Source of the DNA: an uncultured Methylococcaceae bacterium | Lineage (GTDB): Bacteria > Pseudomonadota > Gammaproteobacteria > Methylococcales > Methylomonadaceae | Reading direction: 5' to 3' | DNA length: 33,193 nt | Assembly (NCBI GenBank): GCA_903945375.1 | Contig: CAJAVP010000059.1 | Location: forward strand, 1-33,193 | Part shown: in pieces, positions 27,175 through 33,193 of the stretch | Numbering within the stretch: the first letter of the stretch is position 1 | Layout: the number at the start of each line of letters is the position of its first letter | Translations under genes and position numbers: made by a program | The notes under the pieces: generated by a model | Told to the model about the DNA's origin: nothing | Database searches by the model: none | Seen by the model: only the letters and a program-made list of their open reading frames with translations

Positions 27175-27573
27175 ATGACGAAAAATAATTCTAGCGATAT
27201 TAGCGAAAGACTAAATGCCATTGTTAAAGAAAGGTTTAATGACACATGGTCAGAGCTTGCAAAGATAACTGGATTAAGTCCGTCTACTTTGCAGCCTATA
27301 AAAAATGGCGGCGATTTAAGAGTTAATACGTTATTACGAATTTGTGATTCTCTTAATATCAATGCTGATTGGCTCTTAACCGGCGAAGGCGATATGTACC
27401 GGAATCTGCCCGCACAAAGCCCGCTTGACCCTGAAATTCAGGCTGTGGTGACGATCATGAAAAAAATGGATAAAGCCCAAAAAACAGTTATTCGGGCTAG
27501 TGCTGAAAACATTGAACAGATCATTGACCTGAAACAGCAGGTGTCGGCATTGACGACGCGGCAATCGGCGTAG
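27175..27573 (+). CDS. CI/C-type repressor without protease domain
   Basis: A 132-residue protein starting at ATG 27175. The N-terminal 75 residues form a helix-turn-helix domain of the phage CI type (ISERLNAIVKERFNDTWSELAKITGLSPSTLQPIKNGG, then NTLLRICDSLNINADWLLTGEGDMY). A helical C-terminal tail follows (VVTIMKKMDKAQKTVIRASAENIEQIIDLKQQ), likely for dimerisation. There is no LexA-like serine protease domain, so induction by RecA-driven self-cleavage is not expected, as with P2 C. It faces the early operon across two palindromes and should repress it. Confidence 0.83.
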   Translation: MTKNNSSDISERLNAIVKERFNDTWSELAKITGLSPSTLQPIKNGGDLRVNTLLRICDSLNINADWLLTGEGDMYRNLPAQSPLDPEIQAVVTIMKKMDKAQKTVIRASAENIEQIIDLKQQVSALTTRQSA

Positions 27574-30011: not shown

Positions 30012-30145
30012 GGTAATCGTAAGGTAATTAAAAAGGTAATCTGATTACTTAATAATTACCTAATAATTACTTTTTCTATACTTAGGTATCTTGTTGTTTA
30101 TATTGCATTTATCGCCGTTTTTTGGGTTCGATTACTTTAATTACC
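30012..30145. repeat. Cluster of AGGTAAT elements upstream of integrase
   Basis: Forward GGTAAT at 30012, 30023 and 30035; inverse ATTACC at 30055 and 30140; variants ATTACT at 30044, 30066 and 30131. Forward copies are spaced 11-12 bp, about one helical turn, like iterons or arm-type integrase sites. Together with the copies in the 104-bp repeats there are at least ten around the integrase gene. Confidence 0.75.
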
Positions 30146-30226
30146 TATTTGCCAGCTACGATAAATTTTTATGAAAAAACAGGTTTTAGGTGGTTTTATG
30201 CCAATTTTTATGAAATGCGAGGGGTT

Positions 30227-31255
30227 ATGATTCATCAAAAAGACGGAAAGTGGTTTGTTGAAATTAACCGCGATGGGTTTAAGCGGGTTCGTCGTTCATT
30301 CAAACTTAAAAAAGATGCGGAAACTTTTGAAAGGGAGTATTTATCACCGCCTACTGGGACTAATGCGATTGAAAGACAGTTGGTTACTCAAGACTCAAGA
30401 TTGCTATTTGATCTGATCGATTTGTGGTTTACGCTGCATGGGGTAAATCTGAGCGATGGCGAGCGTCGTAAATCTATTCTGGTCGCTATGGCCGCTGGTA
30501 TGGACAACCCGGTGGCTTATGAGCTGTCGCCGACACTGTTTTTACAGTATCGTTACCGTTGTATTTATAGTAATCATAAGAAGGTTTCTGCAAAGACGTT
30601 TAATAATCGTCATGGTTATTTGGTGGCCGTCTATAACACGCTAAAAAAGCTGAAAATTATTGATTATTTGTGCCCTATTGCCGAGGTCGAGTTTATTAAG
30701 ACGCACGAAAGGCAGTTGAGTTATTTATCTCTTGAGCAAATTTGGACGCTTTTTGATTGCCTTAAAAATGATTGCCGAAATGAGAGTGTCTGGTGGATTG
30801 CCCAGTTGTGTATAAGAACGGGCGCCAGGTGGGGCGAGGCTGAACAGTTGAAGCGTAAGCAGCTTCATAATTATCGCGTGACTTTCGAGTTTACTAAGTC
30901 TAAAAAAGTTAGGACGGTTCCTATTGATGCGGATTTTTTCGATATGTTGATGGTTTTTACGAAGGGGAAAAATCCAGAAGATAGGATTTTTAAAGATAGC
31001 ATAACTGCATTCAACCGTACCATAGGTCGTTCTGAGTTAGATTTTCCGCGCGGTCAGATGACGCATATTTTACGCCATAGTTTTGCCAGTTATTTCATTA
31101 TAAACGGAGGCAATATATTGACTCTGCAAAAGATTTTAGGTCATTCTGATATAAAGATGACCATGCGCTACGCTCACCTTGCCCCAGATCATTTGCTCGA
31201 TGCTGTGAGGTTAAATCCGATGGCAAGCATTACAGCCAATTTGGCTGTAAAATAG
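30227..31255 (+). CDS. int: Tyrosine integrase, P2-like
   Basis: The frame reaches back to a TTG at 30122 through the AGGTAAT cluster, but ATG 30227 with GAGGGG just upstream gives a normal integrase start (MIHQKDGKWFVEINRDGFKR) and 342 residues, near the 337 of P2 Int. The catalytic set is complete: Arg in TGARWGEAEQL, Lys in KSKKVRTVP, His-x-x-Arg in THILRHSFASY, His in LGHSDIKMT and the nucleophile Tyr in MRYAHL. The N-terminal part fits arm-site binding. It lies just before a tRNA-Ser 3' end, the expected att core, and has the AGGTAAT cluster in its upstream region, so it may regulate itself. Confidence 0.93.
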   Translation: MIHQKDGKWFVEINRDGFKRVRRSFKLKKDAETFEREYLSPPTGTNAIERQLVTQDSRLLFDLIDLWFTLHGVNLSDGERRKSILVAMAAGMDNPVAYELSPTLFLQYRYRCIYSNHKKVSAKTFNNRHGYLVAVYNTLKKLKIIDYLCPIAEVEFIKTHERQLSYLSLEQIWTLFDCLKNDCRNESVWWIAQLCIRTGARWGEAEQLKRKQLHNYRVTFEFTKSKKVRTVPIDADFFDMLMVFTKGKNPEDRIFKDSITAFNRTIGRSELDFPRGQMTHILRHSFASYFIINGGNILTLQKILGHSDIKMTMRYAHLAPDHLLDAVRLNPMASITANLAVK

Positions 31256-31670: not shown

Positions 31671-31703
31671 AAAAAAAGCCGCGATTGAATAAACAATCAC
31701 GGC
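31671..31703 (-). terminator. Intrinsic terminator of the late/methyltransferase operon
   Basis: On the minus strand, GCCGTGATTG pairs with CAATCGCGGC (one mismatch, six-base loop) and is followed by eight U. It is 171-203 bases past the methyltransferase stop and would end leftward transcription before the att core. Confidence 0.85.
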
Positions 31704-31730
31704 CTAGATTAATATATCGAAAATGGCAAA

Positions 31731-31873: not shown

Positions 31874-32743
31874 CTAAAAATTCCTAATCAACAGCTCAAA
31901 CGACTGCTTACTAGCATTTGCGCCTGATGGATTGCCCAGCGAATACTTGATAGCCAACTGCTCAATAGAAAAATCTGCAAAGCACTCACGCATCTCAGGA
32001 ATGTCATTGACTGATAGAATCAACTTACCTTTCATAGTCCGCATGATCCTAGCCAATTTTGCATATTGCTCAATACCAAACTCAACACCGTAGCCCACCG
32101 TTTTAAAATACGGTGGGTCACAATAAACAAGAGTATCTTTACTGTCGTAGCGATTGATGCAATTAAGCCAGTCTATATTTTCAATAAAAACGCCGTCCAA
32201 ACGCTTTGATAACCACTCAATATCCCTGTGAAAGCTAGATACTCTTAACCGAGCTTTGCCTGTTCTACCATACCCAAAATTTTGCTGCACAATCTTTGCC
32301 GAAAATGCCATTTTAATCAGACAATAGAAACGTACTGCACGCTGAATATCCGTTAAATCTGTTGCATGATTATTTTGCAAGCGATTGAACTGTTCTCTAC
32401 TATGTAAAACCGTTGTTGATTGTGCTGCTAACTCGCGATGATGATGCTGAACGCAACGGTACAAATTAATTAACTCGCCGTTAATGTCGTTAATAACCTC
32501 GCAATTTGAACGCGGTTTCTTTATAAAAATCGCGGCACCACCACAGAACGGCTCGACATAACAACGATGATCGGGAAACTGACTGATGATCTGTTTAGCC
32601 AGTTTTGACTTACCGCCAACCCAAGCAATTAATGGTTGGTTGGTTGGTTGGTTGGTTGGTTGGTTGGTTGGTTGGTTGGTTTTGACACAATCATATAAAA
32701 GTTCCGTAAAAAAATAATAAGTAAAAATAGAGTTTCTAGTCAC
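31874..32743 (-). CDS. Dam-type DNA adenine methyltransferase, probably phase-variable
   Basis: A D12-class N6-adenine methyltransferase that transfers methyl from S-adenosylmethionine to adenine, most often in GATC for this class. Motif I parts are WVGGKSKLAKQI (about 41-52) and VEPFCGGAAIF (63-73); motif IV is DPPYF (209-213); VINDINGELINLY is also family-typical. Before motif I lie four TNQP units from a 12-copy AACC repeat. The in-frame start is a GTG at 32743 with a weak ribosome site and an odd leader. The ATG at 32694, with GGAA seven bases upstream and a better start (MIVSKP), is out of frame at 12 repeats and stops after 21 residues; it would be in frame with 10 or 13. The present copy may thus be in the OFF state or weakly expressed. 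Confidence 0.9.
   Translation of the reverse strand: MTRNSIFTYYFFTELLYDCVKTNQPTNQPTNQPTNQPLIAWVGGKSKLAKQIISQFPDHRCYVEPFCGGAAIFIKKPRSNCEVINDINGELINLYRCVQHHHRELAAQSTTVLHSREQFNRLQNNHATDLTDIQRAVRFYCLIKMAFSAKIVQQNFGYGRTGKARLRVSSFHRDIEWLSKRLDGVFIENIDWLNCINRYDSKDTLVYCDPPYFKTVGYGVEFGIEQYAKLARIMRTMKGKLILSVNDIPEMRECFADFSIEQLAIKYSLGNPSGANASKQSFELLIRNF
32634..32681 (-). repeat. Perfect (AACC)12 tetranucleotide repeat at the methyltransferase 5' end
   Basis: Forty-eight bases of uninterrupted GGTT on the plus strand, AACC on the coding strand. Tetranucleotide repeats within the first codons of genes are the classic slipped-strand switch of Haemophilus and Neisseria, including methyltransferase genes. A change of one unit shifts the frame. 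Confidence 0.96.
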
Positions 32744-32775: not shown

Positions 32776-33193
32776 CTATCCAGTCACAGCGGCTATAACA
32801 CAGACATTAGACACTGTGCCAATTTGCACAGGATGAGTTGATGTGGGTGAAAGAAGAGGCGCTCCGATAGACGACCAGTAGACAAACTGCCCCGAGTCAT
32901 CGATACCGCGCATAAAAAAAGTCACGATCTTATCGACCGAGAGAGCGCCAGACGGCAGCCAGACCCAGTCCGACAACGCGCAGGACGAAGTAAAGCGAGC
33001 TGTCAGCACAGAAGCATGTCGAGTCATAACAGAAACGCTCGGCAGCGCCCCCCCCAGCCCCTGCTGTCGCCATGCACAGACCACCGACGGCAGCGCCACC
33101 GACCAGCCAACGCCCACACTAAGTGCTGCAGGCAACGGCACCCAAACAGCGGAAGACGCCAACAGCGCAGGCACAGCTCGCGCATCACCAAAA
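32776..33193 (-). CDS. Tail fibre or tail protein, 3' part only
   Basis: The frame is open to the right edge and ends at TAG 32776, giving the last 138-139 residues of a protein. It starts at the edge with FGDARAVPALLASSAVWVPL and ends QIGTVSNVCVIAAVTG. It has the same Ser/Ala/Val/Leu-rich, G/T-rich coding style as the distal tail genes at the left edge and the same direction, and the methyltransferase follows 33 bases after the stop. If the genome is circular, it may be the C-terminal domain of the fibre that leaves the left edge, or a separate gene behind it. Confidence 0.65.
   Translation of the reverse strand, partial: FGDARAVPALLASSAVWVPLPAALSVGVGWSVALPSVVCAWRQQGLGGALPSVSVMTRHASVLTARFTSSCALSDWVWLPSGALSVDKIVTFFMRGIDDSGQFVYWSSIGAPLLSPTSTHPVQIGTVSNVCVIAAVTG

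Follow-up and report, generated by a model that had tools for sequence, protein, structure and literature searches.

Does a repeat tract in the first codons of a phage methyltransferase gene act as a switch, and what would such a switch do? The question is raised by a Dam-family gene in the stretch of DNA analysed here (33,193 bp, hereafter the window), which is the whole of contig G000:C59 in a draft assembly of 3.59 Mb in 133 contigs. The gene carries a perfect (AACC)12 tract. Repeat-switched methyltransferases are known from bacteria, mostly host-adapted pathogens, and no phage-borne example was found by title or beginning of abstract among the best-ranked open-licence PMC literature.

The phage and its host

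Comparison with PHROGs profiles identified an integrase (30122–31255, plus strand; phrog_1), a repressor-like regulator (27175–27573, plus strand; phrog_8 and phrog_4), a primase, a terminase, a portal, a major head protein and a tape measure of 2071 residues. By its gene content the window thus carries a temperate phage, in keeping with the preliminary description, in which the methyltransferase was held to be phage-borne. A search of phage DNA with the terminase–portal stretch gave weak matches only, the best rows covering 10–11% of the query. Minus-strand ORFs leave the contig at its left end and enter it at its right end, and it may represent a phage genome, circular or excised, with the break inside its fibre repeats. 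The ORF leaving on the left (1–735) contains 111-bp tandem repeats of a collagen-like fibre. The ORF entering on the right (32776–33192, minus strand), which lies upstream of dam and is open at the contig end, is, judged by its position, probably the end of a tail fibre gene. As bare ratios, GATC is the lowest among the palindromes counted in the window (100 observed, 146 expected, ratio 0.68), and CATG stands at 0.71.

The host assembly contains a gene matching PF02461 (PmoA-like) between two ORFs recognized by eye as pmoC and pmoB, in what looks like a pmoCAB operon, and the host is therefore probably a methanotroph. It is no known host-adapted pathogen, and is probably an environmental methanotroph.

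The methyltransferase

With the 12 units of the assembly, the gene is open on the minus strand from a GTG at 32743 (31874–32743, 289 residues). Profiles, alignment and model place the methyltransferase domain (WVGGK ... DPPY ... stop, 31874–32641) after the tract. The protein matched PF02086 (E = 2.3e-34; 119.7 bits, cut-off 22) and TIGR00571 dam (120.8 bits, cut-off 114.85), and the DPPY catalytic motif is invariant across 18 aligned sequences. An AlphaFold2 model constructed from 18 sequences (mean pLDDT 74.6, pTM 0.74) was mostly confident in the catalytic domain, with pLDDT below 50 at residues 1–35 (GTG leader plus repeat peptide) and at residues 268–278. Its best PDB folds were EcoDam and DpnM (Foldseek E-values of 4e-16 and 2.5e-14, 20–24% identity). 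On these profile and fold matches, the window gene is a D12/Dam class adenine methyltransferase, and the earlier assignment to a Dam-type enzyme holds. Identity as a type III Mod was ruled out, as the Pfam and NCBIfam matches up to an E-value of 1 consisted only of D12/Dam families and the PT repeat, with no type III Mod among them.

The EcoDam residues L122, R124, P134 and Y138, which we take to be those of DNA contact and recognition, align with K, K, A and L of the family profile in a HMMER alignment that is weak in this part. For this reason GATC should not be assumed to be the target of the window enzyme. One further D12 gene came to light in the host assembly (L069; G000:C86:38788–39400); it has an EcoDam-like recognition stretch and lies in pieces in different frames.

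The repeat tract

The tract (32634–32681, minus strand) codes for PTNQ repeats and was recovered by Tandem Repeats Finder with period 4, 12.2 copies and 100% matches (32633–32681). Together with the profile matches, this confirms the earlier observation: the Dam-family gene is intact, and its first codons contain (AACC)12 without a mismatch. No other tetranucleotide run in the window is as long as this one (48 nt), the longest after its removal being 8 nt, and the longest run across 200 mononucleotide shuffles of the window was 12 nt. Across the 3.59 Mb assembly, an (AACC)5 pattern gave eight overlapping matches, all inside this tract.

A clade of tract-bearing dam genes

Searches of genomes and virus contigs revealed one clade of 12 phage or prophage dam genes, including that of the window, which is recoverable without the tract as bait. 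A tract occupies the same position in nine of the 12 (five genes in four genomes, and four in virus contigs), and is absent from G013, L102 and L116. The clade was seen only in the family of the window's host and in virus contigs.

Among genomes, a protein search of 61 yielded a 67% identical gene with (AACC)19 in G006, of the same genus, and of 237 family genomes searched by profile, 18 had a dam-like gene at E ≤ 1e-40. A total of 27 genome dam genes (20 from the family profile search, two of G054, four from class genomes and one more) were checked with 1.5 kb around them where present. Six belong to the clade, five of these with the tract, which was found in none of the other 21. Five of 369 class genomes gave matches at E ≤ 1e-80, the window's own included, and the other four are without tract.

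Among virus contigs, the AACC pattern led to L070 and L071 and the AGCC pattern to L211, which is assigned to the clade by 18 residues and by the similarity of its leader to the one in G172:C3; L072 proved to be a false match of a gapped AACC pattern. L070 was also found by a tract-blind profile scan. A tract-blind motif scan returned L071 and L211 again, together with 89 new loci among the matches listed. The clade genes among these 89 are L291, L102 (the same as L217) and L116 (the same as L239), with a tract in L291 only. The other 86 loci listed have no run of at least 16 bp within 250 bases upstream, and the 790 kb of motif loci contain one run of at least 20 bp, at the L291 dam. Of the 91 motif-scan matches listed, 85 match the clade by BLASTP at 1e-3; not every such locus is a Dam gene. 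A further 110 related loci (1.0 Mb) contain four runs of at least 20 bp, none of them at dam. Matches of dam to 610 phage records and 2372 plasmid records were all below 60% identity. The shuffles, the 86 tractless motif loci and the 21 tractless genome dam genes rule out a chance origin of the tract.

Start codon and predicted phase

The preliminary description had the GTG at 32743 open at 12 units and the ATG at 32694 stopped at a TAA, and recomputation of the frames gave the same result. From the ATG (32692–32694, minus strand), the frame at 12 units runs for 21 residues to the TAA (32629–32631, minus strand); it enters the enzyme at 10, 13 and 16 units. The GTG frame is open at 9, 12 and 15 units. 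A TTG at 32690, absent from the preliminary description, is open at 11 and 14 units and fills the remaining phase, so that every phase of the window gene has some in-frame start codon. Since the GTG is in frame at 12 units and the TTG at 11, the phases may be strong and weak instead of on and off. No ATG, GTG or TTG in the enzyme frame lies between the window tract and the enzyme. The frames of the window and its relatives bear out the earlier view that the repeat, with units that are not triplets, separates the start codon from the enzyme.

A leader ending in ATG is common to eight of the 12 clade genes, a count in which the leader of G172:C6 is not visible. The leader preceding the window ATG is GGAACTTTTAT (32695–32705, minus strand), with GGAA as a possible Shine–Dalgarno sequence. 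Its counterparts are GGAACTTTTTATA in L070 and G111, GGAACTTTTTA in L071, GGAACTTTTT in L291, GGAACTTTTTT in L116, GGAATTTTTA in L102 and a variant, GTGAACTTTTTGA, in G006. The resemblance to leaders of homologous phage genes lends indirect support to the earlier statement that this ATG has the better ribosome site. G172:C3 and L211 have a different leader, with AAAGGAG before the ATG, and that of G013 also differs from the common one. In L102 and L116, which carry no tract, the leader ATG is the start, and the enzyme begins roughly nine residues further on. Because leader and ATG are common to most of the clade, the ATG at 32694 is likely to be the start codon of the window gene, and the assembled 12 units are then predicted to represent the OFF phase. 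Some ON expression may still arise at 12 units from the GTG at 32743.

Turnover of the tract in relatives

The tract is made of AACC units in the window gene (12), G006 (19), L070 (14) and L071 (12 or more, interrupted by 10 N), of AGCC units in G111 (8), G172:C3 (18), G172:C6 (at least 22) and L211 (22), and of AAGCC units in L291 (11). Invariance across related phages, which according to the preliminary description would have spoken against a switch, was thus not seen: different genes have between 8 and 22 units of three kinds at the same position. By the leader ATG, L211 and L291 are ON, and the window gene, G006, L070, G111 and G172:C3 are OFF. This count of seven genes omits G172:C6, the contig of which begins inside the tract, and L071, the apparent ON phase of which was left uncounted because of the 10 N in its tract. 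The genes therefore differ in repeat unit and length within one clade, and both ON and OFF examples occur among them.

G172:C3 offers the clearest example. At 18 units, its enzyme frame has a stop overlapping the first bases of the tract and no ATG, GTG or TTG between this stop and the enzyme, which leaves it without a usual start; the leader ATG would be in frame at 17 or 20 units. The enzyme frame itself is intact and differs from the second copy in G172 at 43 synonymous and 15 nonsynonymous codons out of 252 compared, the last two being the stop and one codon past it. An intact frame with mostly synonymous differences is as expected for a gene that is used in other phases. L070 at 14 units has no start codon in the enzyme frame before the tract, and the G111 dam contains an internal TAG.

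In a tree of 17 rows, ten full-length genes form the clade with support of 100/100. L071 (AACC) and G111 (AGCC) are 85% identical, and the tractless L102 is 80–81% identical to both. The tract label requires three changes on the tree, as gains or losses. As 85% identical genes carry different units, a single frozen, inherited tract is ruled out as the only account. The unchanged place and changing unit fit selection for any slippery tract whose unit is not a multiple of three.

Two further observations concern the contigs. In G172:C6 a second tract, (CAAT)13, lies just past the tract-bearing dam and is apparently intergenic (L213:1129–1180). Tracts at L208, L209, L211 and L182 (the L071 contig) are situated at or near contig ends or contain N; the assembly may break at these tracts because of mixed lengths.

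Gene neighbourhood and expression

When the ORFs of the window were compared with the G006 region, G226, G225, L102 and L116 (E ≤ 1e-5; L211, L291, G111 and G172 were left out of this comparison), only dam and a repressor-like protein (28–36% identity) had matches. The contigs carry different phage genes: a transposase of phrog_310 in G226 (the L071 contig), terminase, portal, minor head and connector genes in L211, and a tail protein of phrog_1101 with a weaker match to fibre J in L291. A tail family, phrog_52, adjoins dam in both G111 and L070, and the two phages are therefore related.

A same-strand upstream neighbour is visible in seven of the nine tract-bearing genes, among them the window gene and L071. 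Of the five neighbours compared with profiles, four are structural (L070, G111, L211 and G006), and that of L291 has no profile match. The position of dam directly behind structural genes suggests late, virion-related expression, as for mom of phage Mu, which is expressed late. For the tract-bearing genes read upstream of dam, no Com-like ORF was recognized there by eye. A short cysteine-rich Com-like ORF is present by eye before the tractless, GGKRR-type dam of L015, L016, L032 and L033.

A terminator-like stem of 12 pairs followed by a T run (31676–31705, minus strand) lies 169 bases past the dam stop; five such sites were found in the window and 1.9 expected. The single promoter-like site before dam (9/12 match) is weak and overlaps the GTG itself, and promoter-like sites in the window (seven found, 5.1 expected by shuffling) do not exceed the shuffled number.

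A proposed phage-owned switch and its alternatives

We consider it probable that the tract is a phase-variation (contingency) switch on an orphan phage DNA methyltransferase starting at ATG 32694, and that it serves as a methylation hedge. Translation would begin at this ATG, and gain or loss of units by slippage (units of 4 nt here, of 4 or 5 nt among relatives) would shift the frame, so that only every third count would yield the enzyme (10, 13 and 16 ON, 12 OFF). The repeat would encode a disordered N-terminal tail, tolerated by the enzyme at any length. The leader–repeat–dam unit would be a cassette that recurs in unlike phages, frequently just after structural genes. Most likely it would serve to leave a phage population part methylated and part unmethylated, as a hedge against hosts that restrict either form. 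We infer slippage within one clone, late expression, methylated progeny and benefit. There is a wider reading, to which we give even chances. Different temperate phages (one with an integrase, Mu-like ones with a transposase and one with a lambda-like tail) would exchange a mobile, repeat-switched cassette for an orphan methyltransferase, a contingency family owned by phages and not by their hosts, and in a phage population particles as well as lysogens with and without methylation would coexist.

One alternative, raised in the preliminary description, is a lysogen phasevarion: the switch would be used to methylate the host chromosome, changing host gene expression in some of the lysogens. That dam is intact and its phage equipped with integrase and repressor would suit this idea, as would the fragmented state of the one further D12 gene recovered from the assembly, since a phage mark would then be new to the host. 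The S. aureus prophage adenine methyltransferase PamA, moreover, is summarized as changing host expression (PMC12435837). Structural genes nevertheless precede dam at the four loci with a nameable upstream neighbour, an arrangement no less compatible with late expression tied to the virion than with a regulator in lysogens, and the sole promoter-like site is of a kind no more frequent than in shuffled sequence. We therefore regard a role in lysogens as possible but rather doubtful. Graded tuning, with each unit count framing another start and giving strong, weak or very weak expression, appears unlikely to us. The three start codons do serve the phases of the window gene, but the GTG and TTG lie outside the common leader, and the weak promoter-like match covers the GTG itself. 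Relatives also lack such alternatives, L070 at 14 units having no start before the tract and G172:C3 at 18 units none at all.

Two readings would deny the tract any switching function. If it were a leader ornament, the enzyme would start after it, and an in-frame ATG does directly follow the tract in G006, L070, G111 and L291, in G111 with AAGG at ribosome-site spacing. The window gene, G172:C3, G172:C6 and L211, however, have no in-frame ATG, GTG or TTG there; the aligned clade genes have M, I or L at the post-tract position, so that M is an ordinary residue at this place; and the tractless L102 and L116 use the leader ATG. We thus hold an ornament to be very improbable. Least credible of all is that the tract is an error of assembly, or a neutral run that slips easily and has no use. 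The assembly is a draft, 10 N interrupt the L071 tract, and contig ends lie close by (G172:C6 begins inside the tract, G172:C3 begins 61 bases before it and L211 ends 54 bases after it). Yet tracts built from three different units occur at the same place in five genome and four virus-contig genes, and the 790 kb of motif loci listed have their one run of at least 20 bp at the L291 dam.

Relation to known systems

Methyltransferases switched by simple sequence repeats are well known in bacteria, as outlined in a review that speaks of bacterial type I and III systems (PMC13076061). The type III mod genes (modA, modM and modD) and their phasevarions resemble the window gene in enzyme type (adenine methyltransferase), in a repeat of non-triplet units close to the start and in the switching of frame by unit number that is predicted here. 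The window gene differs in being phage-borne and of the D12/Dam family instead of type III Mod, and it is not known to affect host expression. It would work like a contingency-locus methyltransferase and belongs to the D12/Dam family. E. coli Dam and DpnM, of the D12 class, are its nearest solved folds and are also hit by profile, and differ by their 20–24% identity and by the repeat-coded N-terminal tail of the window enzyme. The GGKRR-type phage Dam (Pseudomonas phage B3, with matches in Vibrio phage VP882 and Halomonas phage phiHAP-1) belongs to the same wider family but forms a separate clade in the tree. Those of its genome copies that were checked carry no tract. A Com-like ORF precedes dam in several members, judged by eye, and that of B3 is annotated as Com. 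PamA shares with the window gene a phage-encoded adenine methyltransferase, in its case acting on the host, and the summary of that report mentions no repeat switch (PMC12435837). Host-encoded phase-variable systems that act on phages have also been described in outline (PMC12003011, PMC6755750).

What sets the present case apart is a probable repeat switch in phages, probably of an environmental methanotroph, in which the unit changes and the place stays. If the proposed switch operates, phages themselves would hedge on DNA methylation, which would bear on the passage of phages through restriction, on mixed phage methylomes and on a possible source of bacterial phasevarions.

AACC runs outside dam

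Runs of (AACC)6 are present in seven of 201 family genomes, two of these being the dam genes of G000 and G006, and a general habit of AACC runs in the hosts was accordingly rejected as an explanation. In the other five genomes (G186, G134, G177, G213 and G103) the runs lie, by eye, outside dam; that of G186 looks intergenic and that of G213 is irregular. In G134, a few bases separate (AACC)11 from the response-regulator ORF that follows it (L075; G134:C44:23482–23525), and G177 has (AACC)21 near two-component genes; these two are possible host contingency loci. At the end of L184 (G103:C79), an ATG is directly followed by (AACC)12 at the contig end, and the neighbouring genes do not look phage-like.
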